Origin: Salvelinus alpinus
Lineage: Eukaryota > Chordata > Actinopteri > Salmoniformes > Salmonidae
Direction of reading: 5' to 3'
DNA length: 64,000 bases
NCBI RefSeq assembly: GCF_045679555.1
Contig: NC_092122.1
Span: 10,566,043-10,630,042 of the forward strand
The notes under the pieces were generated by a model. The model was not told the origin of the DNA and did no database searches. It was given only the letters and a program-made list of their open reading frames with translations. The position numbers and the translations under genes were made by a program. Shown here piece by piece: positions 1 to 59,073 of the stretch. Position 1 is the first letter of the stretch, and every line of letters begins with the position of its first letter.

Positions 1-3000
1 GCTACATGTGTTGTATTATACTAGGAGGTCGGGTAAAGTCCAGCTACAGGTGTTGTATTATACTAGGAGGTCAGGTAAAGTCCAGCTACAGGTGTTGTAT
101 TATACTAGGAGGTCAGGTAAAGTCCAGCTACAGGTGCTGTTGTATACTAGGAAGCCAGGTAAAGTCCAGCTACGGGTGTTGTGTTATACACGGAGGTCAG
201 CAACAGGTGTCCAGCTACAGGTGTTGCATTAAACTAGGAGGTCTGGTAATTCCAGCTACGGGTGTTGCATTATACAAGGAGGTCAGGTAAAGTCCAGCTA
301 CAGGTGTAGTATTATACTAGGAGGTCAGGTAAAATCCAGCTACAGGTGTTGCATTATACTAGGAGGTCAGGTAAAGTCCAGCTACGGGTGTTGTATTATA
401 CTAGGAAGCCAGGTAAAGTCCAGCTACGGGTATTGTATTATACGCGGAGGTCAGCTACAGGTGTCCAGCTACGGGTGTTGTATTACACTGGAGGTCAAGT
501 AAAGTCCAGCTACGGGTGTTGTATTATACTAGGAGGTCAGGCAAAATCCAGCTACAGGTGTTGTATTATACCAGGAGGACAGGTAAAGTCCAGCTACAGG
601 TGTTGTATTATACTAGGAGGTCAGGAAAAGTCCAGCTACAGGTGATGTATTAAACTAGAAGGTCAGGTAAAGTCCAGCTACAGGTGTTGTATTATACTAG
701 GAGTTCAGGTAATTCCAGCTACAGGTGTTGTATTACACTAGGAGGTCGGGTAAAGTCCAGCTACAGGTGTTGTATTATACTAGGAGGTCAGGTAAATTCC
801 AGCTACGGGTGTTGTATTATACTAGGAGGTCGGGTAAAGTCCAGCTACAGGTGTTGTATTATACTAGGAGGTCAGGTAAAGTCCAGCTAGAGGTGTTGTA
901 TTATACAAGGAGGTCAGGTAAAGTCCAGCTACATGTGTTGTATTATACTAGGAGGGCAGGTAAAGTCCAGCTACGGGTGTTGTATTATACTAGGAGGTCA
1001 GGTAAAGTCCAGCTACGGGTGTTGTATTATACTAGGAGGTCAGGTAAAGTCCAGCTACAGGTGTTGTATTATACTAGGAGGTCAGGTAAAGTCCAGCTAC
1101 AGGTGTTGTTGTATACTAGGAAGCCAGGTAAAGTCCAGCTACGGGTGTTGTGTTATACACGGATGACAGCAACAGGTGTCCAGCTACGGCTGTTGTATTA
1201 TACTGGAGGTCAAGTAAAGTTCAGCTACGGGTGTTGTATTATACTAGGAGGTCGGGTAAAGTCCAGCTACAGGTGTTGTATTATACTAGGAGGTCAGGTA
1301 AAGTCCAGCTAGAGGTGTTGTATTATACTAGGAGGTCAGGTAAAGTCCAGCTACATGTGTTGTATTATACTAGGAGGGCAGGTAAAGTCCAGCTACGGGT
1401 GCTGTATTATACTAGGAGGTCAGGTAAAGTCCAGATACGGGTGTTGTATTATACTAGGAGGTCAGGTAAAGTCCAGCTACATGTGTTGTATTATACTAGG
1501 AACTCGGGTAAATTCCAGCTACAGGTGTTGCATTATACTAGGAGGTCAGGTAAAGTCCAGCTACAGGTGTTGTTGTATACTAGGAAGCCAGGTAAAGTCC
1601 AGCTACGGGTGTTGTGTTATACACGGAGGTCAGCAACAGGTGTCCAGCTACGGCTGTTGTATTATACTGGAGGTCAAGTAAAGTTCAGCTACAGGTGTTA
1701 TATTATACTAGGAGGTCAGGTAAAATTCAGCTATAGGTGTTGCATTATACTAGGAGGTCAGGTAATTCCAGCTACGGGTGTTGTATTACATTAGGAGGTC
1801 AGGTAAAGTCCAGCTACGGGTGTTGTATTACATTAGGAGGTCAGGTAAAGTCCAGCTACAGGTGTTGTATTATACTAGGAGGTCAGGTAAAGTCCAGCTA
1901 CAGGTGTTGCATTATACTAGGAGGTCTGGTAATTCCAGCTATGGGTGTTGCATTTTACAAGGAGGTCGGGTAAACTCCAGCTACAGGTGTTGTATTATAC
2001 TAGGAGGTCAGGTAAAGTCCAGATACGGGTGTTGTATTATACTAGGAGGTCAGGTAAAGTCCAGCTACAGGTGTTGTATTATACTAGGAGGTCAGGTAAA
2101 TTCCAGCTACGGGTGTTGATTATACTAGGAGGTCAGGTAAAGTCCAGCTACGGGTGTTGTATTATACTAGGAAGGCAGGTAAAGTCCAGCTACAGGTGTT
2201 GTATTATACTAGGAGGTCATGTAAAGTCAAGCTACATTTGTTGTATTATACTAGGAGGTCAGGGAAAGTCCAGCTACAGGTGTTGTATTATACTAGGAGG
2301 TCAGGTAAAGTCCAGCTACGGGTGTTGTATTATACTAGGAGGGCAGGTAAAGTCCAGCTACGGGTGTTGTATTATACTAGGAGGTCATGTAAAGTCAAGC
2401 TACATTTGTTGTATTATACTAGGAGGGCAGGTAATGTCCAGCAACAGGTTTTGTATTATACTAGGAGGTCAGGTAAAGTCCAGCTACATGTGTTGTATTA
2501 TACTAGGAACTCGGGTAAAGTCCAGCTACAGGTGTTGTTGTATACTAGGAAGCCAGGTAATGTCCAGCTACGGGTGTTGTGTTATACACGGAGGTCAGCA
2601 ACAGGTGTCCAGCTACGGCTGTTGTATTATACTGGAGGTCAAGTAAAGTTCAGCTACGGGTGTTGTATTATACTAGGAGGTCAGGTAAAGTCCAGCTACA
2701 GGTGTTGTATTATACTAGGAGGTCAGGTAAAGTCCAGCTAGAGGTGTTGTATTATACTAGGAGGTCAAGTAAAGTCCAGCTACATGTGTTGTATTATACT
2801 AGGAGGACAGGTAAAGTCCAGCTACGGGTGCTGTATTATACTAGGAGGTCAGGTAAAGTCCAGATACGGGTGTTGTATTATACTATGAGGTCAGGTAAAG
2901 CCCAGCTACAGGTGTTGTATTACACTAGGAGGTCAGGAAAAGTCCAGCTACAGATGTTGTATTAAACTAGTAGGTCAGGTAAAGTCGAGCTACAGTTGTT

Positions 3001-6000
3001 GTATTATACTAAGAGGTCAGGTAATTCCAGCTACAGGTGTTGTATTATACTAGGAGGGCAGGTAAAGTCCAGCTACGGGTGCTGTATTATACTAGGAGGT
3101 CAGGTAAAGTCCAGATACGGGTGTTGTATTATACTAGGAGGTCAGGTAAAGTCCAGCTACAGGTGTTGTATTATACTAGGAGGTCAGGAAAAGTCCAGCT
3201 ACAGGTGTTGTATTAAACTAGTAGGTCAGGTAAATTCCAGCTACGGGTGTTGTATTATACTAGGAGGTCAGGTAAAGTCCAGCTACGGGTGTTGTATTAT
3301 ACTAGGAGGGCAGGTAAAGTCCAGCTACAGGTGTTGTATTATAATAGGAGGTCATGTAAAGTCAAGCTACATTTGTTGTATTATACTAGGAGGGCAGGTA
3401 ATGTCCAGCTACAGGTGTTGTATTATACTAGGAGGTCAGGTAAAGTCCAGCTACATGTGTTGTATTATACTAGGAGGTCGGGTAAAGTCCAGCTACAGGT
3501 GTTGTATTATACTAGGAGGTCAGGTAAAGTCCACTTACAGGTGTTGTATTATACTAGGAGGTCAGGTAAAGTCCAGCTACAGGTGCTGTTGTATACTAGG
3601 AAGCCAGGTAAAGTCCAGCTACGGGTGTTGTGTTATACACGGAGGTCAGCAACAGGTGTCCAGCTACAGGTGTTGCATTAAACTAGGAGGTCTGGTAATT
3701 CCAGCTACGGGTGTTGCATTATACAAGGAGGTCAGGTAAAGTCCAGCTACAGGTGTAGTATTATACTAGGAGGTCAGGTAAAATCCAGCTACAGGTGTTG
3801 CATTATACTAGGAGGTCAGGTAAAGTCCAGCTACGGGTGTTGTATTATACTAGGAAGCCAGGTAAAGTCCAGCTACGGGTATTGTATTATACGCGGAGGT
3901 CAGCTACAGGTGTCCAGCTACGGGTGTTGTATTACACTGGAGGTCAAGTAAAGTCCAGCTACGGGTGTTGTATTATACTAGGAGGTCAGGCAAAATCCAG
4001 CTACAGGTGTTGTATTATACCAGGAGGACAGGTAAAGTCCAGCTACAGGTGTTGTATTATACTAGGAGGTCAGGAAAAGTCCAGCTACAGGTGATGTATT
4101 AAACTAGAAGGTCAGGTAAAGTCCAGCTACAGGTGTTGTATTATACTAGGAGTTCAGGTAATTCCAGCTACAGGTGTTGTATTACACTAGGAGGTCGGGT
4201 AAAGTCCAGCTACAGGTGTTGTATTATACTAGGAGGTCAGGTAAATTCAAGCTACGGGTGTTGTATTATACTAGGAGGTCAGGTAAAGTCCAGCTACGGG
4301 TGTTGTATTATACTAGGAGGTCAGGTAAAGTCCAGCTACGAGTGTTGTATTATATTAGGAGGTCAGGTAAATTCCAGCTACGGGTGTTGTATTATACTGG
4401 AGGTCAAGTAAAGTTCAGCTACGGGTGTTGTATTATACTAGGAGGTCAGGTAAAGTCCAGCTACATGTGTTGTATTATACTAGGAGGTCGGGTAAAGTCC
4501 AGCTACAGGTGTTGTATTATACTAGGAGGTCAGGTAAAGTCCAGCTACAGGTGTTGTATTATACTAGGAGGTCAGGTAAAGTCCATTTACATGTGTTGTT
4601 GTATACTAGGAAGCCAGGTAAAGTCCAGCTACGGGTGTTGTGTTATACACGGAGGTCAGCAACAGGTGTCCAGCTATGGCTGTTGTATTATACTGGAGGT
4701 CAAGTAAAGTTCAGCTACAGGTGTTGTATTATACTCGGAGGTCATGTAAAGCCCAGATACAGGTGTTGTATTATACTAGCAGGTCAGGTAAAGTCCAGCT
4801 ACATGTGTTGTATTAAAGTAGGAGGACAGGTAAAGTCCAGCTACAGGTGTTGTATTATACTAGGAGTTCAAGTAAAGTCCAGCTACAGGTGTTGTATTAT
4901 ACTAGGAGGTCAGGTAAGGTCCAGCTACAGGTGTTGTATTATACTAGGAGGTCAGGTAAAATTCAGCTATAGGTGTTGCATTATACTAGGAGGTCAGGTA
5001 ATTCCAGCTACGGGTGTTGTATTACATTAGGAGGTCAGGTAAAGTCCAGCTACGAGTGTTGTATTACATTAGGAGGTCAGGTAAAGTCCAGCTACAGGTG
5101 TTGTATTATACTAGGAGGTCAGGTAAAGTCCAGCTACAGGTGTTGCATTATACTGGGAGGTCTGGTAATTCCAGCTACAGGTGTTGTATTACACTAGGAG
5201 GTCAGGAAAAGTCCAGCTACAGATGTTGTATTAAACTAGTAGGTCAGGTAAAGTCCAGCTACAGGTGTTGTATTATACTAGGAGGTCAGGTAATTCCAGC
5301 TACAGGTGTTGTATTATACTAGGAGGGCAGGTAAAGTCCAGCTACGGGTGCTGTATTATACTAGGAGGTCAGGTAAAGTCCAGATACGGGTGTTGTATTA
5401 TACTAGGAGGTCAGGTAAAGTCCAGCTACAGGTGTTGTATTATACTAGGAGGTCAGGAAAAGTCCAGCTACAGGTGTTGTATTAAACTAGTAGGTCAGGT
5501 AAATTCCAGCTACGGGTGTTTTATTATACTAGGAGGTCAGGTAAAGTCCAGCTACGGGTGTTGTATTATACTAGGAGGGCAGGTAAAGTCCAGCTACAGG
5601 TGTTGTATTATAATAGGAGGTCATGTAAAGTCAAGCTACATTTGTTGTATTATACTAGGAGGGCAGGTAATGTCCAGCTACAGGTGTTGTATTATACTAG
5701 GAGGTCAGGTAAAGTCCAGCTACATGTGTTGTATTATACTACGAGGTCGGGTAAAGTCCAGCTACAGGTGTTGTATTATACTAGGAGGTCAGGTAAAGTA
5801 CACTTACAGGTGTTGTATTATACTAGGAGGTCAGGTAAAGTCCAGCTACAGGTGCTGTTGTATACTAGGAAGCCAGGTAAAGTCCAGCTACGGGTGTTGT
5901 GTTATACACGGAGGTCAGCAACAGGTGTCCAGCTACAGGTGTTGCATTAAACTAGGAGGTCTGGTAATTCCAGCTACGGGTGTTGCATTATACAAGGAGG

Positions 6001-6828
6001 TCAGGTAAAGTCCAGCTACAGGTGTAGTATTATACTAGGAGGTCAGGTAAAATCCAGCTACAGGTGTTGCATTATACTAGGAGGTCAGGTAAAGTCCAGC
6101 TACGGGTGTTGTATTATACTAGGAAGCCAGGTAAAGTCCAGCTACGGGTGTTGTATTATACGCGGAGGTCAGCTACAGGTGTCCAGCTACGGGTGTTGTA
6201 TTACACTGGAGGTCAAGTAAAGTCCAGCTACGGGTGTTGTATTATACTAGGAGGTCAGGCAAAATCCAGCTACAGGTGTTGTATTATACCAGGAGGACAG
6301 GTAAAGTCCAGCTACAGGTGTTGTATTATACTAGGAGGTCAGGAAAAGTCCAGCTACAGGTGATGTATTAAACTAGAAGGTCAGGTAAAGTCCAGCTACA
6401 GGTGTTGTATTATACTAGGAGTTCAGGTAATTCCAGCTACAGGTGTTGTATTACACTAGGAGGTCGGGTAAAGTCCAGCTACAGGTGTTGTATTATACTA
6501 GGAGGTCAGGTAAATTCAAGCTACGGGTGTTGTATTATACTAGGAGGTCAGGTAAAGTCCAGCTACGGGTGTTGTATTATACTAGGAGGTCAGGTAAAGT
6601 CCAGCTACAGGTGTTGTATTATATTAGGAGGTCAGGTAAATTCCAGCTACGGGTGTTGTATTATACTGGAGGTCAAGTAAAGTTCAGCTACGGGTGTTGT
6701 ATTATACTAGGAGGTCAGGTAAAGTCCAGCTACATGTGTTGTATTATACTAGGAGGTCGGGTAAAGTCCAGCTACAGGTGTTGTATTATACTAGGAGGTC
6801 AGGTAAAGTCCAGCTACAGGTGTTGTAT

Positions 6829-9800
6829 TATACTAGGAGGTCAGGTAAAGTCCATTTACATGTGTTGTTGTATACTAGGAAGCCAGGTAAAGTCCAGCTA
6901 CGGGTGTTGTGTTATACACGGAGGTCAGCAACAGGTGTCCAGCTATGGCTGTTGTATTATACTGGAGGTCAAGTAAAGTTCAGCTACAGGTGATGTATTA
7001 TACTCGGAGGTCATGTAAAGCCCAGATACAGGTGTTGTATTATACTAGGAGGTCAGGTAAAGTCCAGCTACATGTGTTGTATTAAAGTAGGAGGACAGGT
7101 AAAGTCCAGCTACAGGTGTTGTATTATACTAGGAGTTCAAGTAAAGTCCAGCTACAGGTGTTGTATTATACTAGGAGGTCAGGTAAGGTCCAGCTACAGG
7201 TGTTGTATTATACTAGGAGGTCAGGTAAAATTCAGCTATAGGTGTTGCATTATACTAGGAGGTCAGGTAATTCCAGCTACGGGTGTTGTATTACATTAGG
7301 AGGTCAGGTAAAGTCCAGCTACGAGTGTTGTATTACATTAGGAGGTCAGGTAAAGTCCAGCTACAGGTGTTGTATTATACTAGGAGGTCAGGTAAAGTCC
7401 AGCTACAGGTGTTGCATTATACTAGGAGGTCTGGTAATTCCAGCTATGGGTGTTGCATTTTACAAGGAGGTCAGGTAAAGTCCAGCTACAGGTGTTGTAT
7501 TATACTAGGAGGTCAGGTAAAATCCAGCAACAGGTGTTGTATTATAATCGGAGGTCACGTAAAGTCCAGCTACAGGTGTTGTATTATACTAGGAGGTCAG
7601 GAAAAGTCCAGCTACAGGTGTTGTATTAAACTAGGAGGTCAGGTAAAGTCCAGCTACAGGTGTTGTATTATACTAGGAGGTCAGGTAAAGTCCAGCTACG
7701 GGTGTTGTATTATACTAGGAAGGCAGGTAAAGTCCAGCTACAGGTGTTGTATTATACTAGGAGGTCATGTAAAGTCAAGCTACATTTGTTGTATTATACT
7801 AGGAGGGCAGGTAATGTCCAGCTACAGGTGTTGTATTATACTAGGAGGTCAGGTAAAATCCAGCAACAGGTGTTGTATTATACTAGGAGGTCAGGTAAAG
7901 TCCAGCTACAGGTGTTGTATTATACTAGGAGGTCAGGTAAAGTCCAGCTACAGGTGTTGCATTAAACTAGGAGGTCTGGTAATTCCAGCTACGGGTGTTG
8001 CATTATACAAGGAGGTCAAGTAAAGTCCAGCTACAGGTGTAGTATTATACTAGGAGGTCAGGTAAAATCCAGCTACAGGTGTTGCATTATACTAGGAGGT
8101 CAGGTAAAGTCCAGCTACGGGTGTTGTATTATACTAGGAAGCCAGGTAAAGTCCAGCTACGGGTGTTGTATTATACGCGGAGCTCAGCTACAGGTGTCCA
8201 GCTACGGGTGTTGTATTATACTAGGAGGTCAGGTAAAGTCCATTTACATGTGTTGTTGTATACTAGGAAGCCAGGTAAAGTCCAGCTACGGGTGTTGTGT
8301 TATACACGGAGGTCAGCAACAGGTGTCCAGCTATGGCTGTTGTATTATACTGGAGGTCAAGTAAAGTTCAGCTACAGGTGTTGTATTATACTCGGAGGTC
8401 ATGTAAAGCCCAGATACAGGTGTTGTATTATACTAGGAGGTCAGGTAAAGTCCAGCTACATGTGTTGTATTAAAGTAGGAGGACAGGTAAAGTCCAGCTA
8501 CAGGTGTTGTATTATACTAGGAGTTCAAGTAAAGTCCAGCTACAGGTGTTGTATTATACTAGGAGGTCAGGTAAGGTCCAGCTACAGGTGTTGTATTATA
8601 CTAGGAGGTCAGGTAAAATTCAGCTATAGGTGTTGCATTATACTAGGAGGTCAGGTAATTCCAGCTACGGGTGTTGTATTACATTAGGAGGTCAGGTAAA
8701 GTCCAGCTACGAGTGTTGTATTACATTAGGAGGTCAGGTAAAGTCCAGCTACAGGTGTTGTATTATACTAGGAGGTCAGGTAAAGTCCAGCTACAGGTGT
8801 TGCATTATACTAGGAGGTCTGGTAATTCCAGCTATGGGTGTTGCATTTTACAAGGAGGTCAGGTAAAGTCCAGCTACAGGTGTTGTATTATACTAGGAGG
8901 TCAGGTAAAATCCAGCAACAGGTGTTGTATTATAATCGGAGGTCACGTAAAGTCCAGCTACAGGTGTTGTATTATACTAGGAGGTCAGGAAAAGTCCAGC
9001 TACAGGTGTTGTATTAAACTAGGAGGTCAGGTAAAGTCCAGCTACAGGTGTTGTATTATACTAGGAGGTCAGGTAAAGTCCAGCTACGGGTGTTGTATTA
9101 TACTAGGAAGGCAGGTAAAGTCCAGCTACAGGTGTTGTATTATACTAGGAGGTCATGTAAAGTCAAGCTACATTTGTTGTATTATACTAGGAGGGCAGGT
9201 AATGTCCAGCTACAGGTGTTGTATTATACTAGGAGGTCAGGTAAAATCCAGCAACAGGTGTTGTATTATACTAGGAGGTCAGGTAAAGTCCAGCTACAGG
9301 TGTTGTATTATACTAGGAGGTCAGGTAAAGTCCAGCTACAGGTGTTGCATTAAACTAGGAGGTCTGGTAATTCCAGCTACGGGTGTTGCATTATACAAGG
9401 AGGTCAAGTAAAGTCCAGCTACAGGTGTAGTATTATACTAGGAGGTCAGGTAAAATCCAGCTACAGGTGTTGCATTATACTAGGAGGTCAGGTAAAGTCC
9501 AGCTACGGGTGTTGTATTATACTAGGAAGCCAGGTAAAGTCCAGCTACGGGTGTTGTATTATACGCGGAGCTCAGCTACAGGTGTCCAGATACGGGTGTT
9601 GTATTACACTGGAGGTCAAGTAACGTCCAGCTACGGGTGTTGTATTATACTAGGAGGTCAGGTAAAGTCCAGCTACAGGTGTTGCATTATACTAGGAGGT
9701 CTGGTAATTCCAGCTATGGGTGTTGCATTTTACAAGGAGGTCAGGTAAAGTCCAGCTACAGGTGTTGTATTATACTAGGAGGTCAGGTAAAATCCAGCAA

Positions 9801-10520
9801 CAGGTGTTGTATTATAATCGGAGGTCACGTAAAGTCCAGCTACAGGTGTTGTATTATACTAGGAGGTCAGGAAAAGTCCAGCTACAGGTGTTGTATTAAA
9901 CTAGGAGGTCAGGTAAAGTCCAGCTACAGGTGTTGTATTATACTAGGAGGTCAGGTAAAGTCCAGCTACGGGTGTTGTATTATACTAGGAAGGCAGGTAA
10001 AGTCCAGCTACAGGTGTTGTATTATACTAGGAGGTCATGTAAAGTCAAGCTACATTTGTTGTATTATACTAGGAGGGCAGGTAATGTCCAGCTACAGGTG
10101 TTGTATTATACTAGGAGGTCAGGTAAAATCCAGCAACAGGTGTTGTATTATACTAGGAGGTCAGGTAAAGTCCAGCTACAGGTGTTGTATTATACTAGGA
10201 GGTCAGGTAAAGTCCAGCTACAGGTGTTGCATTAAACTAGGAGGTCTGGTAATTCCAGCTACGGGTGTTGCATTATACAAGGAGGTCAAGTAAAGTCCAG
10301 CTACAGGTGTAGTATTATACTAGGAGGTCAGGTAAAATCCAGCTACAGGTGTTGCATTATACTAGGAGGTCAGGTAAAGTCCAGCTACGGGTGTTGTATT
10401 ATACTAGGAAGCCAGGTAAAGTCCAGCTACGGGTGTTGTATTATACGCGGAGCTCAGCTACAGGTGTCCAGCTACGGGTGTTGTATTACACTGGAGGTCA
10501 AGTAACGTCCAGCTACGGGT
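6829..10520. repeat. Higher-order duplications of 1388 bp and 882 bp in the minisatellite
   Basis: Blocks of variant units recur in register. The open frame at 7283-8023 reappears at 8671-9411 with the same translation (offset 1388), and the block from about 8755 reappears from 9637 (offset 882, exactly 21 units). Earlier in the array, 2996-5100 recurs at 5265-7370 (offset 2269) and 1-830 recurs at about 3450-4280 (offset 3449). The near identity of the 1388- and 882-bp copies points to recent segmental duplication within the array; the older blocks carry scattered differences. Confidence 0.85.
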
Positions 10521-11370
10521 GTTGTATTATACTAGGAGGTCAGGCAAAATCCAGCTACAGATGTTGTATTATACCAGGAGGACAGGTAAAGTCCAGCTAC
10601 AGGTGTTGTATTATACTCGGAGGTCACGTAAAGTCCAGCTACAGGTGTTGTATTATACTAGGAGGTCAGGTAAAGTACAGCTACGGGTGTTGTATTATAC
10701 TAGGAGGGCAGGTAAAGTCCAGCTACAGGTGTTGTATTATACCAGGAGGTCAGGTAAAGTCCAGATACGGGTGTTGTATTATACTAGGAGGTCAGGAAAA
10801 GTCCAGCTACGGGTGTTGTATTATACTAGGAGGGCAGGTAAAGTCCAGCTACAGGTGTTGTATTAGACTAGGAGGTCAGGTAAAATTCAGCTATAGGTGT
10901 TGCATTATACTAGGAGGTCAGGTAATTCCAGCTACGGGTGTTGTATTATATTAGGAGGTCAGGTAAAGTGCAGCTACAGGTGTTGTATGAAACTAGGAGG
11001 TCAGGTAAAGTCCAGCTACAGGTGTTGTATTATACTAGGAGGTCAGGTAAAGTCCAGCTACAGGTGTTGTATTAAACTAGGTCAGGTAAAGTGCAGCTAC
11101 ATGTGTTGTATGAAACTAGGAGGTCAGGTAAAGTCCAGCTACAGGTGTTGTATTATACTAGGATGTCAGGTAAAATCCAGCTACGGGTGTTGTATTATAC
11201 TAGGAGGTCAGGTAAAGTCCAGCTATGGGTGTTGTATTATACTACGAGGGCAGGTAAAGTCCAGCTACAGGTGTTGTATTATACTAGGAGGGCAGGTAAA
11301 GTCCAGCTACAGGTGTTGTATTATACTAGGAGGTCATGTAAAGTCAAGCTACAGGTGTTGTATTATACTA

Positions 11371-12190
11371 GGAGGTCAGTTAGTCCAGCAACAGGTGTTG
11401 TATTATACTCGGAGGTCACGTAAAGTCCAGCTACAGGTGTTGTATTATACTAGGAGGTCAGGAAAAGTCCAGCTACAGGTGTTGTATTAAACTAGGAGGT
11501 CAGGTAAAGTCCAGCTACAGGTGTTGTATTATACTAGGAGGTCAGGTAAAGTCCAGCTACAGGTGTTGTATTATACTAGGAAGTAAGGTAAAGTCCAGCT
11601 ACAGGTGTTGTATTATACTAGGAGGTAAGGTAAAGTCCAGCTACAGGTGTTGTATTATACTAGGAGGTCAGGTAAAGTCCAGCTACAGGTGTTGTATTAT
11701 ACTAGGAGGTAAGGTAAAGTCCAGCTACAGGTGTTGTATTGTACTAGGAGGTCAGGTAAAGTCCAGCTACAGGTGTTGTATTATACTAGGAGGTCAGTTA
11801 GTCCAGCAACAGGTGTTGTATTATACTCGGAGGTCACGTAAAGTCCAGCTACAGGTGTTGTATTATACTAGGAGGTCAGGAAAAGTCCAGCTACAGGTGT
11901 TGTATTAAACTAGGAGGTCAGGTAAAGTCCAGCTACAGGTGTTGTATTATACTAGGAGGTCAGGTAAAGTCCAGCTACAGGTGTTGTATTATACTAGGAA
12001 GTAAGGTAAAGTCCAGCTACAGGTGTTGTATTATACTAGGAGGTAAGGTAAAGTCCAGCTACAGGTGTTGTATTATACTAGGAGGTCAGGTAAAGTCCAG
12101 CTACAGGTGTTGTATTATACTAGGAGGTAAGGTAAAGTCCAGCTACAGGTGTTGTATTGTACTAGGAGGTCAGGTAAAGTCCAGCTACAG
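11371..12190. repeat. 418-bp tandem duplication at the array edge
   Basis: The distinctive short unit with GGTCAGTTAGTCCAGCAACA occurs at 11371 and again at 11789, and the following ten units, including the variants with AGGAAGTAAGG and TATTGTACTAGG, are repeated in the same order. This is the terminal block before unique sequence. Confidence 0.85.
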
Positions 12191-12352
12191 GTGTGTGTTC
12201 AGTATATGAGCTATAAAGCAGCAGATGAAGAGGGTGTTTTTTTTGTTTTCAAGTGTAAAACGCAAATATAAAAGTCTGTGTGATCAAATATTAACTCACA
12301 GCCCCGTGTGTGTATGTGTGCGTGCGTGCGTGTTCCCAGGTGGTGCCCTTAC

Positions 12353-12593
12353 CTTCAGGTGGTTGTAGTGTCTTGTTGTTCTGGGTGCACCAGCCTACTG
12401 GGTGGAGTTCGGCGGTCATGACATCACACCAGAAGTCGGCCTTGCGGTCATCTCCGTAGCCACTGAAGCGCAGCAGCAGCAGCTGGCTGCAGGTGGTGAC
12501 GATGGTGGCCACCCAGTAAGTGTCTGGCCTGCTCTTATTGGCCACCTCCAGCTTCATCCCCGGCTGGAAGCTGGTCTGTAGGCTGATGTCCAC
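12353..12593 (-). CDS. sfmbt2: sfmbt2 second coding exon, first MBT repeat
   Basis: A 241-bp minus-strand exon with acceptor CTCGCAG|GTGGAC at 12593 and donor CTGAAG|GTAAGG at 12353. It encodes [20 protein letters not shown] and on to [13 protein letters not shown], an MBT (malignant brain tumour) repeat with the family's GMKLE, TYWVAT, DFWCD and PVGWC blocks. MBT repeats bind lower-methylated lysines on histones; SFMBT proteins carry four of them plus a SAM domain and work in Polycomb-type repression in the nucleus. From memory of the human proteins, wording such as [15 protein letters not shown] and the neighbouring AAPHT fits SFMBT2 better than SFMBT1, and the itih5-itih2 neighbours agree. 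The next exons lie left of the window, beyond the minisatellite. Confidence 0.9.
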
Positions 12594-14149
12594 CTGCGAG
12601 GACCAATCAGAGAGCACCCTGTCACACAAGAGCCAGCCCTCACTGACACTGATAGGTGAGCTTGATTCTAATGGGCTTGCACTTAAGAGGTAAATCAAGT
12701 GCATTGGGCGAGATAAAGCACATCTATACATTGACGTTCTAAAGTGGATGACATCACAGGTCTACATGCAAAATGAGGGACGTCTTACTGGCTCGCTGAG
12801 CCATGATTGACAGAGTAAAACACAGGTGGGCCACAGGTAATGAACAGGTCATTTCTAAAATCTCCCCACCCACACTATCTGTTTATGTATCTGTTTGTTC
12901 ACAAGGGTCAAGGGTTCTTTAAAGTTCCACTGATCTTTCAACCACTTACGGACAGTGGCTCACAGAGAGAACATGAGGACGAGAGAGAGAGAGAGAGAAC
13001 ATATATAAAGGGCTAGTACCAGGAAATTGATAATGTAATGTGTTTCAACCATAGCCACAGGCTGCACTCACACATATCGAAAACCCATTATATAAAACAC
13101 AACACACAAACGCACGCACGCGCACACACTGCCTGTGTTACTGGAAGAAAGCCAACATCTTAGAACTAAAAACCATGCAAATGGCCTCCTGACTTCCTGA
13201 TAAAAACAAAGCAAATATGCTGTATCACACTGGATGGCTTATGTAAGAGAGGCAGAGGCAGAGACAGAAGACAGAGAGACAAAGAGAGAGAGAGACAGAG
13301 AGAGAGAGAGAGACCCCACAATGAATCACTTTTTCAATTGGCACTAGGTCTGTTGAGAGCATGAGAGATATTTCACCATTTCACATTCTCAGGGGAAATC
13401 ATGCTCTTTTTCCTGTGACTCAGTCCACTTACCAACAACACTCCCATTCAAATATAGGCAATCCGGGCAATCACAAAAAAAAAACGAGCAATCACATCAG
13501 CGCACCCCTCACGGACTTCACACACAGAGATTGAGCCCGCTTAAACTGGCATCTATGAAATCAGTCAATGTCATTAAACCCACTGAAAGTCTACTTCCAT
13601 ACTGTACGCTCCTTTCTTTCTGCTACATTATGTAGGACTACTTATGCATTCCCTTTTCCCATAGTCCCCGGCAGCTGTGTGGCGGGCCTCCTGAAGATAA
13701 GCCTGATAGACATCTGTTCTCACTACTACTACTGGCAGTCTGACACTACACCAGGCAAGACTGGGGAGTACTCTAACATATAAGGCAGGGAGGGGTATTC
13801 AACTCTTACCCTACGAGAACCAGAGACCTGATGGTTTTCTGTTCTACCTGATAATTAAATGCACCCACCTGGTGTCCCAGGTCTAAATCAGTCCCTTAGA
13901 GGGGAACAATGAAAACGGCAGTGGCTTCGAGGTCCAGAGTTGAGTTTGACGGATATAAGGTATACAAGCCTTTTTCCATCTTTTCCAACTTCCATGGAGC
14001 CTGAGTCATAATCTCTGAGTAATTGTGTGGGTTGTGTTCAGGCCGGCTGGTTGGTGTGGTTTGGTGTGGGTTGGATTAAATGGAATCAATGCTAAATGTC
14101 ACACAGGAATTTACGCGTGTATGACGCCAAAATAGACATACACTGTGCA
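12594..14149. other. sfmbt2 intron, no gene seen
   Basis: Intronic sequence between the two sfmbt2 coding exons. It holds short purine (GA)n runs near 12982-13000 and 13244-13312 and an A9 run near 13475, but no further coding exon that I can support. Confidence 0.6.
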
Positions 14150-15710
14150 CAGCACATTGGCGAAAGTATTCAGACCCCTTCCCCTTTTCCACATTCTGTT
14201 AGGTTACAGCCTCATTCTAAAATGGATAAAATAAATAAAAATCCTCACCAATCTACACACAATACCCCATAATAACAGAGCAAAAACATATTTTTAGAAA
14301 TTGTTGCAAATATATAAAAGATAAAAACACAAATACCTTATTTGCATAAGTATTCAAACCCTTTGCTATGAGACTCGAAATTGAGCTCAGGTGCATCCTG
14401 TTTCCATTGATCATCCTTGAGATGTTTCTACAACTTGATTGGAGGCCACCTGTGTTAAATTCAATTGAGTGGACATAATTTGGAAAGGCACACGACTGTC
14501 CACAGTTGACAGTGCATGTCAGAGCATCAGAGCAAAAAAACAAGCAATGAGGTAGAAGGAATTTTCCGTAGAGCTACGAGATAGGATTGTGTCAAGGCAC
14601 AGATCTGGGGAAGGGTACCAAAAAATGTCTGCAGCATTGAAGGTCCCCAAGAACACAGTGGCCTCCATCCTTCTGAAATGAAAGAAGTTTGGAACCACCA
14701 AGACTCTTCCTAGAGCTGGCCAAACTGAGCAATCGGGTGAGAAGGGCCTTGGTCAGGGAGGTGACCAAGAACCCGATGGTCACTCTGACAGAGCACCAGA
14801 GTTCCTCTGTGGAGATGGGAGAACCTTCCAGAAGGACAATCATCTCAGCAGCACTCCACCAATCAGGCCTTTATGGTAGAGTGGCCGGAAGGAAGCCACT
14901 CCTCAGTAAAAGGCACCACAGCCCACTTGGAGTTTGCCAAAAGGCTCCTAGAGGACTTTCAGACCATGAGAAACAAGATTCTCTGGTCTGATGAAACCAA
15001 GATTGAACTCTTTGGCCTGAAGGCCAAGCGTCATGTCTGGAGGAAACCTGGCACCATCCCTACGGTGAAGCATAGTGGTGGCAGCATCATGCTGTGGGGA
15101 TGTTTTTCAGCGGCAGGGACTGGGAGACTAGTCAGGATGGAGGGAAAGATGAACGGAGCAAAGTACAGAGAGCTCCTTGATTTAAACTTGCTGCAGAGTG
15201 CTCAGGACATCAGACTGGGGTGAAGGTTCACCTTCCAACAGGACAACGACCCTAAGCACACAGCCAAAACAATGCAGGAGTGGCTTCGGGACACGTCTCT
15301 GAAAGTCCTTGAGTGGCCCAGCCAGAGCCCGCACTTGAACCCAATCGAACATCTCTGGAGAGACCGGAAAATAGCTGTGCAGTGACGCTCCCCCTCCAAC
15401 CTGACAGAGCTTGAGAGGATCTGTGGAGAAGAATGGGAGAAACTCCCAAAATACAGGTGTGCCAAGCTTGTAGCATCATACCCATGAAGACTTGAGGCTG
15501 TAATCGCTGCCAAAGGTGCATTAACAAAGTACTGAGTAAAGGGTCTGAATAGTAATGTAAATGTGGTATTTCCGTTTTTTCTTTGTCATTATGGGGTATT
15601 GTGTGTAGATTGATGAGAGAAAATAACAATTTAATCCATTTTAGAATAAGGCTGTAACGTAACAAAATGTGGAACAAGTCAAGCGGTCTGAATACTTTCC
15701 GAATGCACAG
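14150..15710 (+). mobile_element. Degenerate Tc1-like transposon in sfmbt2 intron
   Basis: Ends are inverted: the left end carries GAAAGTATTCAGACCCCTTC and the right end GGTCTGAATACTTTCCGAAT, with further mirrored TTACAGCC blocks inside. Plus-strand transposase fragments run from about 14690 to 15535 in shifting frames: a helix-turn-helix end ([19 protein letters not shown]), KILWSDET with the first catalytic Asp, [20 protein letters not shown], then a stop before FQQDNDPKH and [11 protein letters not shown]. Frameshifts and stops make it dead. It lies antisense to sfmbt2. Confidence 0.93.
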
Positions 15711-15989
15711 ACGCAACAATGACGATGCAGGGTATGTCATCTCTGGTATGTGAGTCTCAGTCAACAGCAGTGACTCTGAATATGTGACTGTATTTGAGTG
15801 TGGTCTTCAGCAAGTAAGTCATGACTGAGCCTATGAGCCTAACTACACTGTGTTTAACATCATTAGCTAAAGTACATTCTCACTCAAACACATGTTTAAA
15901 GGGATTTGAGTGATTGCCACTCATTCAACAACAGTATTTACAAGATGTTGTGGGGGTTATGGAAATGTAAACGTGTGTTTCTCACTCAC

Positions 15990-16117
15990 ATGTTTGAAAG
16001 CGGTGTGGGGTGCAGCGGTCGCCCCCGTCTCCTCTAGGTACTCCTCCCAATTAAAGTCTGCCTCTTCCTCCATGGAGTCTGTGTCTGATAGGAAGAAAGT
16101 GCTGTCAATCATTTTGA
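15990..16117 (-). CDS. sfmbt2: sfmbt2 first coding exon
   Basis: Minus-strand exon with the ATG at 16112 and donor CAT|GTGAGT at 15990, joining in phase 0 to the exon at 12593. The 41 codons run [20 protein letters not shown] then [20 protein letters not shown] and H; the [11 protein letters not shown] block leads into the first MBT repeat in SFMBT1/2. A polypyrimidine tract and GGTGGCAG acceptor place the exon start at 16117, so at least one non-coding exon should lie to the right. A later in-frame ATG (codon 14, MEEE) could also serve. The intron to the next exon (12594-15989) contains a Tc1-like element. Which paralogue: SFMBT2 favoured over SFMBT1. Confidence 0.88.
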
Positions 16118-16398
16118 CTGCCACCAACCCAGTCACAAAACATTAAAGAAAAAAAACAACCATCACAGCATCACACTCAATAATGACATGTTTTATTTCA
16201 TTAAATAGCAGAAACAAAATTATTCAGTCGACATTCATACCGGTTATAGACTAGGGTGATATTGTCTATATGAATGCAGCTGCCACTGTATTGAAGCCAT
16301 TGGACGCAGTTATTATTTATTGCAGGCGATAGGTTCAATACACATCACTGCATTCTGCATCAAAGTTCGGTGCACACTGTGAACCCAAATGAACACAT

Positions 16399-16555
16399 GT
16401 CCTGTGTAGCTCAGTTGGTAGAGCATGGGCCTTGCAACACCAGGGTTGTGGGTTCGATTCCTGCAGTGGACCAGTACGAGTGAAAAAAGTATGAAAATGT
16501 ATGCACTCACTGCTGTAAGTCGCCCTGGATAAGAGCTAAATCAATACATGTCAAA
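16399..16555 (+). mobile_element. tRNA-derived SINE
   Basis: An internal Pol III promoter is visible: A box TAGCTCAGTTGG at about 16407 and B box GGTTCGATTCC at about 16451. It is followed by the body GACCAGTACGAG...AAAAGTATGAAAATGTATGC and the tail CTGTAAGTCGCCCTGGATAA typical of salmonid SINEs. The tRNA-like part does not fold as a free tRNA gene and has SINE sequence attached, so it is not annotated as a tRNA. Confidence 0.85.
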
Positions 16556-16985
16556 TGTGTAGGCCTACGCCTCTTCATTAAATCTGAGCTGGAATCTTCT
16601 TCTCAGTCTATTCCGTTCAAACAACTCGAGCCTATGCGCATGTTGTAATCAAAATTAAAATCTTAATTGGCTCATTTCAAACTGTCCTTTGGTGAGGCGC
16701 AGCTGGGAGCTAGTTCTGTACGGTGGTGGGGGTCGATAAAACAGAATTGGGGGATCTTCCATCATCGTTTAAATCTCCAGTTTGGGAATAGATTACAACA
16801 CAGATGGACAGAGAGTTGTGGATAAAACGTTAACAGAATGTCGCCACTGCTCAACGAGAATGTCCTATGCATCTGCCAACACCTCAAATATGTTGACACA
16901 TACGCTGACATCACCCCAGTATACCGGAGCAAGATGGAAACGCAAAGAAACTTAACATCGTCTCACCTCTGCATTCAAGCATTCC

Positions 16986-17252
16986 TTGGCAGCTGATTCT
17001 GACTGGACCAAAGAAATTACAGGAGTGATAGGTGGACTATGTTTATATTTGTTTAGTCTTTGGTTTATAGCCACAGGTATGCACCCATTCTCGGTGGTTG
17101 AGAGCAGAGGGTTTCAGCACCTTGTGAATGTGCTCGAGCCACGTTACAAACTTCCCTCTTGCATTCATTTCAGCAAACAGGTAGTACCCGCTCTATATAT
17201 GCAAGCCAAAGCTGTCAATGAATTGGCCAATGCACACTGTGAAGGCACTTAA
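16986..17252 (+). pseudogene. hAT/ZBED-type transposase remnant
   Basis: An open frame without its own ATG reads ...MHPFSVVESRGFQHLVNVLE followed by PRYKLPSCIHFSKQVVPALY. The PFSVVE..GF..L...L.PRYKLPS block is a hallmark of hAT transposases and the ZBED proteins derived from them. Only this middle portion is clear; the upstream 16680-16985 may hold more of the same element in decayed form. Likely an old transposon copy, not an active gene. Confidence 0.7.
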
Positions 17253-18362
<1,110 letters not shown>

Positions 18363-18399
18363 CATCTGTGTGTGTGGTTTCTCCCCTCTAGGCTGTGTC

Positions 18400-21300
18400 T
18401 CATGGGACTTTGTGTGTGGGACTTAACCTGCACTAATGAGAGAGAAGAAACTACCAGTTGTTGCAGTCGGGGGTTTTCTGAAAAGAATCTGCTAGGCTTG
18501 CACTTCTCCTTTACACATAGTAGTGTGTGTGTGTGTGTTTGTGTGTTCACACTCCACATCCCCAGACCTTTACAAAGACTATGACATCATACCTTCCACT
18601 ATCCATCTCCATCTGATTCAAAGGGGTCATGTTACGAACGCTGCTTTTAACAAAAAGTAATCTTGTATTTGGGATTCAGAAAAGCACTTTAAAAATCCTT
18701 AAAAATATGTTTATAATTAAAAAGATGCTAGATCAACCGTACTGTTGAGAAAATGCTCCTAGGTGAGTTGCATTTCCTCTTTCCTGTCCGCCCGACAAAA
18801 CTTTCCTGTTTTCTATTTATTTTAATTCGAGTTCCACTTTTCCAGTCTGTTCATCTGATAAGAAGCACCTTGTCGGGCTGAACATTACAGAACAAGGAAG
18901 TGAATACAGGAAAACAATGACAGAGAGACTAACTATGACTCTACAGCCAGCTCATACATCCCCACACCACTGACCAGGTAAACTGGACCAGATCCTCTCA
19001 CAGCTTGACAGTGGCTGCTGCAGATTCCTGCTGAATAATCAAAACAGAAAAATAACCCTGCACTACACGCATTCTGAGACCTCGATGAAGGTCAATAATG
19101 GTGTGGCATGTCAAAAGGAATGGGAAAAAATTGGAAAATGGCTGCTTTTCAATGCAATCACAGCATTTTGAAACCACAACCCCCTGTTGTGATTGTGATA
19201 CAATGGAGATAACCGGTTGTGGGCTTCACGTGTCATCAAACAATGGCAGACAAAAAAATGAGGAAGGGATCGAAGATTAAAAAGTGTAGGTAAAATCCCT
19301 CACCTGAGTACACCCGTTCTTCTCTCCCATTGGTCGGGCTGTGGGATTTCCCCGCGGAGAGGGCCAACGGCCTGTCCTGTGGGCGGGACTGCATCCTGCT
19401 CTCTTCCTGGTAACCTTTACCCTTTTACCCTTTGTCCGTCTGTCCTCAGACTCCTCAGTCTTCACTGCATCTCCCTCATTCCTCCACTGTGTCACACAAA
19501 GGAGGAGTTAAGTAGGAATGGAGCATTAAAAACCATACCATGTCCATCTAAACTGTAACGAAAGACAATATGGGCAATTATTTCAGACCATACAGATGGG
19601 AAAAAAGAAGAAACCGGCACACTGCTCTTGATAGCGTCACTGCTCTTTAATAAGCTTTACGTGTCTGCCTCAAGGCCTTCGTCAGAGCTTTTGAAAATGC
19701 ATTAGCACCCTTATGTAGACATAGCTCCACCCACATCCGTTCCATGCATCGAATGGGGTTGGGGTGAAAATAAGTAAGTCTTACCAAATATAACAATGCA
19801 TTTCATAAATATTAGAATAAAGTGTGTACCACAAACCACAATGAGGACATTGACTCACCAAGCAAGTTTTCATAAATCATTGGGTACAGCAAGAAAAACA
19901 TCAGAGTCATCTGAAATGGGGGCATTAATTCATGTTCACATTTACAACATAACATACATTAGGCATTTCCTCATTAAGACCTTTAGGAAATAATGTCTGG
20001 GGGGTGAAAATCCCCAAACATTCTCTTTTACTCAGAGTATTATTTTTATCACCTCCCCTGTCTGATATCTTAACTTTCTCTATGCCACAAAATCTAAAGG
20101 TAGAAATGTCGTTTCTCCTGATTGAACTTTAATGGTCACGAATACTCTGTATGAGAGAACGAGAGGTTTTACCTACATAACAGCCCACTACACAGAAGGG
20201 ATAGCCTCTGTTCTACTAATTATATTTGTACAGCATAGAATACCTGCTCAGCACAGTGTGCTGTGTCTCTGCTTGGTACAGTCTGCGAGAGCAATGTGCA
20301 GTTTCTGCTGTTGTGGATTTGCATACCTCAGCACAGCTCTTCAGCCACAAGAGATAACCAATCACAGTTGAAATAAGGTAGAAGAACAGGACCGACACAC
20401 TCCTCAAAGATCAGCGTTACATAAACCATTACGAAAGAAGCGGTGTTTCAAATGACTTAAATCGCTCATATAGGAATCATAACGCTTAGTCATAATTTAC
20501 TCAAAATTGTGTTTTATCTAAAAGATCTTAGAGAAAAACAAACAAAATCTTTTCCTATTGTTTTTCCACCCTGTCTCTTTGCCAGATCACATGGTTACAA
20601 TTGTGATATTTTGGGATAACTGCCATTTCGCTCAGCCTCCGCAATGACTCACTCGAACTGCACGCACTTCCATCAAATGTTCAATTAACACGGATTCATA
20701 GAGCAGATTCATACCAATGCCCTTCAATCAAACTAATACACAAAAACAACTCTCTGCAGACTTCGCAAATTTGCCTAAGCATTCAAATCCTCATTCAAAC
20801 GAGCAATAGGCAATGTTATGTGCTTGTCATCATGCGTTTTTAAAGCATGAGGAACATCATTGGAAATGAATTTAAATCACCTAGATGCTTAATTGCATAG
20901 CTGTGTCCTTTCACGACATGTAATCCTTCTGAATGTGTCCTCTGTCACGCAGGGATCCAAACACACATATATCCATAGCGTAAACAACAAGCTGGTCTAA
21001 TTGGACTCACATGACGCTGCCCCCTGTCCCTCTACACACTCAGCCTGACAGTCCACATTCTCCGGAACGCAAACATATGATCCATCTACTGACTTCAGTC
21101 CAGAAACTATCAGAGATCACAGTCCACAGGGTCCATTAAATAACTAAAATGTAGTATAAACCACAATGTCTCGGACACAATCAGAGAAAATCACAGATGT
21201 ACATGTAGGTTTACAGGATAAAGAGAACCGGGCGATGTATCTCACAGACAGAAGGTCACTTATCCCAGAAATGTTCTCACTGATTTAAATCGAAAAGGTT

Positions 21301-31300: not shown

Positions 31301-34300
31301 TTTCCCCAAAAGCCTGCTACAAATACTGTCCCTCTGTCATAACTATTGGTCCTGAAAACTTAACAAATAGTAAAACATTGTTGTAAATCCACTCTGTCCC
31401 TCTTAAAGAGCTGAACAACAACAACATGCAGTTTCTCTCTTATACCTTTCTCGCCGCTGTCTCACTTCTCTCTCGGTCTCGCTGTCTGTGTCTCTCGTCT
31501 GTCTCTCTCTTGTCTGTTTCTCTCTGCTGTGTTCCCAGGTGTAGAGTGTTTGTTAATGACAGACATGTTCCTGTCTGTGTACACTGAGATGACCGAGAGA
31601 TGCAAATAGTGTTTAGACCAGCACACTGTGTTTGTGGGTGCTTGTCTGTGTGTATGAATGCCTCTATGGTGTCAGTGTGGTTGTGGCAGTCTGGTGTCGT
31701 CCTCTCTATGGCTGATCTTCCCTAGGTGACGATCTGAGTCCGTTGGTCAGTGTATGTGGTTTCAGTGTGATCACCGTGTGGTCATTAAGTAATGGTCTGT
31801 TCTGTCTGACCAGGTGACCCTCCCCAGGCTGCAGCATGGCTCGGTCAGTGTGGTGTCTACCTTCTCATCATGGTCCTGGAGAAGAGTGTAGTCAGCTTGG
31901 TCCTGCTCATTCCTGGATGGACCAACGTGAGTAGGCCCACAGTACCCACAACCACCTGCTCCAGGGACATGGGCTAACCCAGATCCTGAGAGAACTGAGA
32001 GACTCTACCCACTCGAGGGAGAGAGCGGAAGTGTCAATCATGTTCTTTCTTCTCGGTTCTGTGTTTGAAATCTCTGGTGACAATTTAAAGTCAACAGAAA
32101 GTCAAGGCTGAAAAACAAAGGGAGGATGAAAGGTTTTGGAGAGAACAAAGAGAAAGAGTTGTCCTTTGAACAGAATGGGAACATTGACCTTCAACCAAAT
32201 GAATATCATCCGGCCCCTGGGACTAGGGTCTTTAGACAGTTTGTTTGGTTAGTTATTTGTTTGAGGCTGTGGATCTCCTGCTCAAACCTTCTTTGTGTTT
32301 TAGGGTTGTTGTTGCTCTGCTCACTGCTCCTCTTTTGAAGAGGGTCGTTTTAGTTTTTTCTAGTACACATATTTCTTTGGGACACTGGAGCTTTTTCTCA
32401 GGGAGGAAGGCAGGGGGGGGGGTCTCTCTGACATGGTGAATACCACATAATAATCACATTAGCTCCAATCTCACACATGTTCCACAGTAGAGAGCCAAAG
32501 AGATGCTCGTTCTATTATAGTGAAAAATATTGACGATCTAAATGTCCTTGGATGACAGTCTTTTGTGCAACATGATGTTGTTTTGCCCTGCACTAATTGA
32601 AAGTGTGTTTCTCTGCACGCTGCTGTTCCAGCTGCAGTCTGTGTTGCTGGACTACATCCCTAACCCTCAGGTGGACCTTGTGTTGGTCATGCTCATCGTG
32701 CCCGTCATTGTCAACGTGAGTCTCAACCAGCCTGCAATAACACTCTGCATAATGTTGTGTATATGTCAGAGGAGGCTGCTGGGGGGAGGATGGCTCATAA
32801 TAATGGCTGGAATGGAGTAAATGGAACCGTGTGTTTGAGTCTGATACTGTTCTATTCATTCCATTCCAGCCATTACTATGAGCCGTCCTCCCCAATTAAG
32901 GTACCACCAACCTCCTGTGGTATATGTAAACTCAGCAAAAAAAGAAACGTCCTCTCACTGTCAACTGTTTATTTTCAGCAAACTTAACATGTGTAAATAT
33001 TTGTACAAACATAAGATTCAACAACTGAGACATAAACTGAACAAGTTCCACCGACATGTGACTAACAGAAATGGAATAATGTGTCCCTGAACAAAGGGGG
33101 GGGTCAAAATCAAAAGTAACAGTCAGTATCTGGTGTGGCCACCAGCTGCATTAAGTACTGCAGTGCATCTCCTCCTCATGGACTGCACCAGATTTGCCAG
33201 TTCTTGCTGTGAGATGTTACCCCACTCTTCCACCAAGTCACCTGCAAGTTCCCGGACATTTCTGGGGGAATGGCCCTAGCCCTCACCCTCTGATCCAACA
33301 GGTCCCAGACGTGCTCAATGGGATTGAGATCCGGGCACTTCGCTGGCCATGGCAGAACACTGACATTCCTGTCTTGCAGGAAATCCCGCACAGAACGAGC
33401 AGTATGGCTAGTTGCATTGTCATGCTGGAGGGTCATGTCAGGATGAGCCTGCAGGAAGGGTATCACATGAGGTAGGAGGATGTCTTCCCTACAATGCACA
33501 GCGTTGAGATTGCCTGCAATGACAACAAGCTCAGTCCGATGATGCTGTGACACACCGCCCCAGACCATGACGGACCCTCGACCTCCAAATCGATCCCTCT
33601 CCAGAGTACAGGCCTCGATGTAACTCTCATTCCTTCGACGATAAACGCGAATCCGACAATCACCCCTGGTGAGACAAAACCGCGACTCATCAGTGAAGTG
33701 CACTTTTTGCCAGTTCTGTCTGGTCTAGTGGCGGAGGGTTTGTGCCTATAGGCAACGTTGTTGCCGGTGATGTCTGGTGAGGACCTGCCTTACAACAGGC
33801 CTACAAGCCCTCAATCCAGCATCTCTCAGCCTATTGCGGACAGTCTGAGCATTGATGGAAGGATTGTGCGTTCCTGGTGTAACTCGGGCAGTTGTTGTTG
33901 CCATTCTGTACCTGTCCCGCAGGGGTGATGTTCGGATGTTCTGATCCTGTGCAGGTGTTGTTACACGTGGTCTGCCACTGCGAGGACGATCAGCTGTCCG
34001 TCCTGTCTCCCTGTAGCGCTGTCTTAGGCGTTTCACAATACGGATTTTGCAATTTATTGCCCTGGCTACATCTGCAGTCCTCATGCCTCCTTGCAGTGTG
34101 CCTAAGGCATGTTCACGCAGATGAGCAGGGACCCTGGGCATCTTTCTTTTGGTGTTTTTCAGAGTCAGTAGAAAGGCCTCTTTAGTGTCCTAAGTTTTCA
34201 TAACTGTGCCTTTAATTGCCTCCCGTCTGTAAGCTGTTAGTGTCTTAACAGCCGTTCTACAGGTGCATGTTCATTAATTGTTTATGGTTCATTGAACAAG

Positions 34301-45711: not shown

Positions 45712-59073
<13,362 letters not shown>

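Follow-up and report, generated by a model that had tools for sequence, protein, structure and literature searches.

The intronic minisatellite of sfmbt2

The 64,000-nucleotide stretch of the Salvelinus alpinus genome analyzed here (the window; C37:10566043-10630042, C37 being contig NC_092122.1) opens inside a large tandem array of a 42-bp unit, which lies in an intron of the gene sfmbt2. The gene is read on the minus strand, and its exon for the first MBT repeat (hereafter MBT1) occupies window positions 12353..12593 (-) and is followed by a phase 1 intron. The translation of this exon matches the Pfam MBT domain (PF02820) at 5.5e-26 and also has PDB matches to MBT proteins, among them the Polycomb protein Sfmbt. 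In tblastn comparisons with human SFMBT2 and SFMBT1 as queries, it is 71% identical to SFMBT2 over 91 amino acids (aa) and 66% identical to SFMBT1 over 83 aa. Upstream of it lies an exon for the N-terminal segment (15987..16088 (-), limits approximate; 71% over 34 aa to SFMBT2). For the other side of the array we took in 40 kb of extra left flank from C37, in which window positions equal extended (ext) positions minus 40000. On the minus strand the exon order is then the N-terminal exon (16088-15987), MBT1 (matched from 12599) and, left of the array, an exon encoding AIKEKYSDW (ext 14545-14456), MBT2 (from ext 10497) and the exons that follow. In the four exons closest to the array, the identities to SFMBT2 and SFMBT1, respectively, are 71 v 51%, 71 v 66%, 90 v 48% and 56 v 42.5%, whereas one later exon is marginally closer to SFMBT1, at 67.6% over 37 aa compared to 65.0% over 40 aa for SFMBT2.

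The borders of the host intron follow the GT-AG rule: the MBT1 exon ends at 12353 (..GAAG/GTAAGG, with the donor site GTAAGG at 12352-12347), and the next exon, which encodes AIKEKYSDW (90% over 30 aa to SFMBT2), begins after ..TTGTAG/CCATCAAGG. The array is thus flanked by consecutive sfmbt2 exons and sits in an sfmbt2 intron. An earlier note on this DNA, made from the letters alone, had placed an intronic minisatellite beside the first-MBT-repeat exon of sfmbt2 and had held that this would be refuted if, on the minus strand, no downstream exon of sfmbt2 lay left of the array; the placement is borne out, and such exons are present. The intron measures 37,808 bp, 75.5% of which is array, and its remainder between the array and the MBT1 donor site, as defined by the splice site and by an array junction common to the second gene copy described below, covers 12199..12352 (-). 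From this position we would expect the array to be carried in the sfmbt2 pre-mRNA and spliced out.

Tandem Repeats Finder (TRF) reports the part inside the window as a single array at 1-12194, with a period of 42, 290.3 copies and 88% matches. The left edge of the window falls within the array, and the window part amounts to ~43% of the whole; the size of over 12 kb and ~290 copies given in the earlier note therefore holds for the window and falls well short of the complete array, which reaches 28.5 kb and ~680 units. With the added flank TRF gives ext 23650-52194, 679.3 copies without interruption. A cyclic-consensus alignment carries the right end slightly further (ext 23650-52198, 681 unit slots, of which the first and the last are partial), so that the array spans 28,549 bp at C37:10549692-10578240, or -16350 to 12198 in window coordinates, with its right 12.2 kb at 1..12198 (no strand). 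It comprises 172 distinct aligned unit sequences, a count that disregards inserted bases (at most 3 per unit), the commonest being found 70 times. A length of 42 bp is shown by 564 of the 679 full slots, 41 bp by 76 and 45 bp by 33. In a simulated control of 20 Markov sequences of equal length and composition, TRF returned 31 rows overall, with a longest array of 85 bp and a top score of 98. With head-to-tail copies of a unit within the range of roughly 10-100 bp, the array is a minisatellite, and it looks unusually large but of an ordinary kind.

Growth by duplication of multi-unit blocks

The order of unit variants along the C37 array records how it was enlarged. Identical units are adjacent in 15 of 680 cases, as against 14.0 +/- 3.7 in 1,000 permutations, and no run exceeds two, so the excess of identical-neighbor runs that growth by single units would leave is not seen. 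Longer words recur extensively: 467 of 679 exact 3-unit words do so, compared to 2 in one permuted order, and 177 of 672 exact 10-unit words, compared to 0 in one permuted order. As a Megablast self-comparison gave just 1 match and was uninformative, the array was compared with itself in unit register, which yielded 119 near-identical segments at a score of at least 250, whereas three permuted orders gave 1, 2 and 0; 645 of the 681 units fall inside at least one such segment.

A segment whose length is close to its lag is the mark of a direct tandem duplication. Twelve of the 119 segments are at least 0.9 times their lag in length, with identities of 95.7-99.9% and lags of 67, 54, 39, 33, 22, 21, 17, 10 (three) and 6 (two) units. 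Within the window the unit-register comparison delimits tandem block duplications, none of which has a strand, at 6813..9629 (lag 33 units or 1,386 bp, 99.86% identical), 2863..7484 (lag 54 units or 2,268 bp, 99.5%) and 8748..10553 (lag 21 units or 882 bp, 99.9%), along with a tandem repeat of a 10-unit (420 bp) block where the array ends toward the exon (10973..12198, 97.2%). Among the freshest blocks are one of 1,398 bp at 99.86% and one of 852 bp at 100%. The C37 array has been enlarged by duplicating blocks of 6 to 67 units and not by single-unit slippage, which is disfavored because identical neighbors occur at the frequency expected by chance. The simplest mechanism for duplicating such blocks would be unequal exchange or the repair of breaks.

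A short array in the second copy of the gene

A search of the genome (2.37 Gb in 928 contigs) with the 42-bp unit led to a second locus on another chromosome (C11:34.50 Mb). All 8 matches listed were on C11 and the far larger C37 array was itself unlisted, so the search says little about other places. A corresponding search with the MBT1 exon gave 33 matches at E <= 0.001, two of which are sfmbt2-like (C37 at 100% and C11 at 95%); the next four, on C2 and C12, are 62-67% identical and presumably represent sfmbt1. The unit was not found in eight further loci (L039-L046) within ~1.5 kb per side, a weak negative because the C11 locus (L038), taken with the same reach, misses its own array.

C11 is collinear with C37 across the entire 40 kb fetched, the matches spanning ~66 kb of C37 as against 40 kb of C11. 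All collinear pieces of at least 150 bp but one show a substitution divergence of 3.6-11.2%, the outlying piece (17.4%) lying in simple repeats; off-diagonal repeat matches with higher divergence were not counted among these pieces. Beside the array the divergence is 7.2-8.9%, with 7.2% over a 13.7 kb alignment. The two gene copies are collinear, lie on different chromosomes and have diverged in their introns, which are the features of an ohnologue pair.

In the C11 copy an intron of 12,592 bp separates the MBT1 exon, 95% identical to that of C37, from the exon after it. The 42-bp repeat is present in that intron as two pieces, one of 100 bp and the other of 529 bp, which together make 629 bp or ~15 units. 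Both array junctions are common to the two copies, the left reading ..GGGGTCTCTACA/AGCTACAGGTGTT.. and the right ..ACAGGTGTG(T/A)GTTCAGTATATGAG... These findings supply the measurement in the duplicated gene that the earlier note had called for, and they narrow its suggestion of a species- or lineage-specific expansion: the unit is shared by both copies in the same intron at the same junctions, and only the size, which differs roughly 45-fold, is specific to one of them. The C11 array is split at a TA by a 1,561 bp insertion (L015, C11:34501010-34502570) with inverted repeats at both ends, as an insertion of the Tc1/mariner type would have. The insertion apparently also has an inverted internal copy. 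Between the C11 array and the MBT1 exon there is a further element of ~1.3 kb, which resembles window 32927-34360.

Age and origin of the array

Because the junctions and the unit are common while the flanks have diverged, we propose that a short 42-bp array was present before the C37 and C11 copies of sfmbt2 separated, presumably at the salmonid whole-genome duplication. The repeat itself is thus probably older than the split of the copies, whereas the ~45-fold difference in length probably arose after it. Subsequently, the C37 array would have reached ~680 units by repeated duplication of multi-unit blocks, of the kind that unequal exchange or recombination-dependent repair would produce. 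The C11 array would have stayed at, or shrunk to, ~15 units and been broken by a mobile element. The array would have no specific function, being carried in the sfmbt2 pre-mRNA and removed by splicing. We regard this reading as a whole, i.e. a short array predating the split, later block growth on C37, a short C11 array and no specific function, as likely.

The salmonid genome duplication is put at 80-100 million years in the excerpted text of PMC6505133, and if the pair dates from that event, the minisatellite would be at least 80-100 million years old. The C37 units differ from each other by 11% on average (lags 1-299) and from the consensus by 4-9% along the array, a divergence above the per-lineage change of the flanks, which is in keeping either with a high age of the array or with faster mutation.

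Certain points nonetheless weigh against the proposed history. The commonest unit is identical in the two copies (70 units on C37, 3 units on C11) although their flanks are ~7% different; by hand calculation, 0 differences in 42 sites at a rate of ~7% has a probability near 0.04, which leaves room for exchange between the copies or for mild constraint. The array length comes from one assembly, in which an error in assembled length is possible, and neutrality is a default assumption. We had also considered the identical modal unit as proof of constraint and dropped this, the flank substitution rate being only ~7%.

The repeat might instead have originated after the duplication, in a single copy, and have been passed to the second by gene conversion or homoeologous exchange, in which case its common position would carry no evidence of age. 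The identity of the modal unit against a flank difference of ~7% would agree with such a transfer, and homoeologous chromosomes are reported to pair occasionally in salmonid males (excerpts of PMC3962484). However, both junctions are common, and the stretches flanking the array are no less diverged than the others, as judged per aligned piece and not base by base. Moreover, of the 11 C11 units that are covered in full, 8 are matched exactly by none on C37, and two variants of the C11 units are absent or all but absent there (T at position 20 in 0 of 681, T at position 13 in 1 of 681). Exchange is accordingly an unlikely source of the shared array. As for the length, part of the 28.5 kb might be an artefact of false block duplication in the assembly, since identities between blocks reach 100% over 852 bp and 99.86% over 1.4 kb, and assemblers are prone to misjoin such sequence. 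Against this, the 104 kb of C37 read contains no N, and the array passes without a break into flanks of distinct sequence. Differences of 0.3-2.9% separate the two members in most of the 30 listed block pairs, and the 172 distinct unit sequences also speak for a genuine array, which makes even a partial artefact unlikely.

A function for the C37 array, with its length or its motifs regulating sfmbt2, appears more doubtful still. The motifs in question are CAGGTG, presumably an E-box, and AGGTCA, which we take to be a nuclear-receptor half-site, with one-strand counts of 356 and 462 in the 28.5 kb, and a splice-donor-like CAGGTAAAGT on the antisense strand. The counts are high because one unit repeats, CAGGTAAAGT lies on the strand opposite to the gene, and the C11 copy manages with ~15 units; we therefore hold a regulatory role to be a poor prospect. 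A single strict string for a CTCF-like core has 0 occurrences in the array, and no canonical G-quadruplex is found in the whole of it. RNAs of two consensus units fold worse than the mean of dinucleotide shuffles on both strands (z +0.9 and +1.5) and so give no sign of a hairpin of the microRNA (miRNA)-precursor kind, and an Rfam scan, which began at the left edge of the window and thus took in only the window part of the array, gave no match in 1-12198; a hairpin or miRNA reading was rejected on these fold and Rfam results. Coding genes in the array were rejected as well: the open frames on the plus strand (up to 257 aa) are periodic, run opposite to sfmbt2, and are long because 42 is a multiple of 3. 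From its sequence features, we hold with moderate confidence that the array is largely neutral passenger DNA, a putative intronic variable number tandem repeat (VNTR). The difference in copy number seen here, ~680 against ~15 units, is one between paralogues and not between alleles.

Other features of the window

Farther right, on the same strand as sfmbt2, window 46089-51341 (-) contains exons of an inter-alpha-trypsin inhibitor heavy-chain gene, with domain matches to ITI_HC_C at 46089-46595 (-) (6.3e-51) and to VWA at 50742-51341 (-) (2.9e-07), the latter in a frame running into a 165-bp CA repeat. In the human genome, ITIH5 lies next to SFMBT2. An uninterrupted frame of 315 aa at 60003-60950 (-) has domains of a Tc1/mariner-type transposase (HTH_Tnp_Tc3_2 at 1.1e-18, DDE_3 at 5.7e-10), a second DDE_3 frame is found at 33176-33724 (5.7e-17), and stretches at ~14140-15700, 41127-41681 and 54204-54668 are transposase-like by appearance only. 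Another minisatellite, at 56025-56510, has the 12-bp unit GGGACTCAGCAC in 40.5 copies (TRF) and is covered by open frames because of its period; a GA-rich array of 27/54/81 bp at 55623-55881 adjoins it. The Rfam scan, which took in window 1-20000, gave a weak tRNA match at 16407-16464 (+) (29.6 v 29 bits gathering score, E 0.013), which is perhaps, at a guess, a tRNA-derived short interspersed element.

Comparison with known systems

Large intronic arrays of repeated units are known from other vertebrates, one of them in the same gene. In excerpts of PMC3212979 and PMC3110154, intron 10 of rodent Sfmbt2 is described as holding a nested tandem array of 55-65 kb, the C2MC cluster, whose 296-nt unit is derived from B1 and microsatellite sequence and carries miRNA hairpins, with imprinting in rodents; this array grew in two nested phases (PMC3212979). 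The fish array resembles it in being a very large tandem array with nested growth in an intron of sfmbt2, which might suggest that the two are counterparts. However, the 42-bp unit is ~7 times shorter than the mouse unit of 296 nt, is without a hairpin, folding no better than shuffles, and is without an Rfam match in its window part. The host intron in the fish directly follows the MBT1 exon and is apparently a different one, as judged by exon order without aligning the gene structures. The chance that the fish array is the counterpart of the rodent miRNA cluster is accordingly next to nil, and the parallel, intriguing as it is, is best treated as a coincidence. It is tempting to speculate that Sfmbt2 introns are a recurrent site of giant nested arrays, which emerged independently in rodents and in this fish because transcription or chromatin of the gene in the germ line or early embryo favors duplicating blocks, and that the fish array has silenced or retuned one copy of the gene; we give this only a slim chance.

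A second known system is TRACT, an intronic VNTR of the human gene CACNA1C with a 30-bp unit, alleles of 3-30+ kb and many unit variants (excerpts of PMC13131567). Both are intronic minisatellites of large size with a short unit in many variants. In contrast to TRACT, whose growth its authors inferred from perfect runs of identical units (PMC13131567), the C37 array has identical neighbors at chance level and grew by multi-unit blocks. The discussion of the same paper cites another study, according to which long stretches duplicated in tandem may contribute. The two also differ in that TRACT is known from population data, whereas the C37 array is known from one assembly. None of the listed openly licensed PMC papers dealt with minisatellites of such a kind in salmonids, in ohnologues or in sfmbt2, a result that does not establish the array's novelty in print.

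More generally, vertebrate minisatellites or VNTRs have units of tens of bp arranged head-to-tail, with degenerate copies and turnover of blocks. The C37 array shares its unit size, head-to-tail order, degeneracy and block turnover with them, and departs from them in being unusually long and in having a short partner array in the duplicated gene copy. This amounts to a paired natural experiment, two duplicated genes having the same minisatellite at ~15 vs ~680 units in one and the same intron, in which the sister copy can serve as the control for asking why a minisatellite expands explosively and whether the expression or splicing of the host gene is altered by an array of 28 kb.

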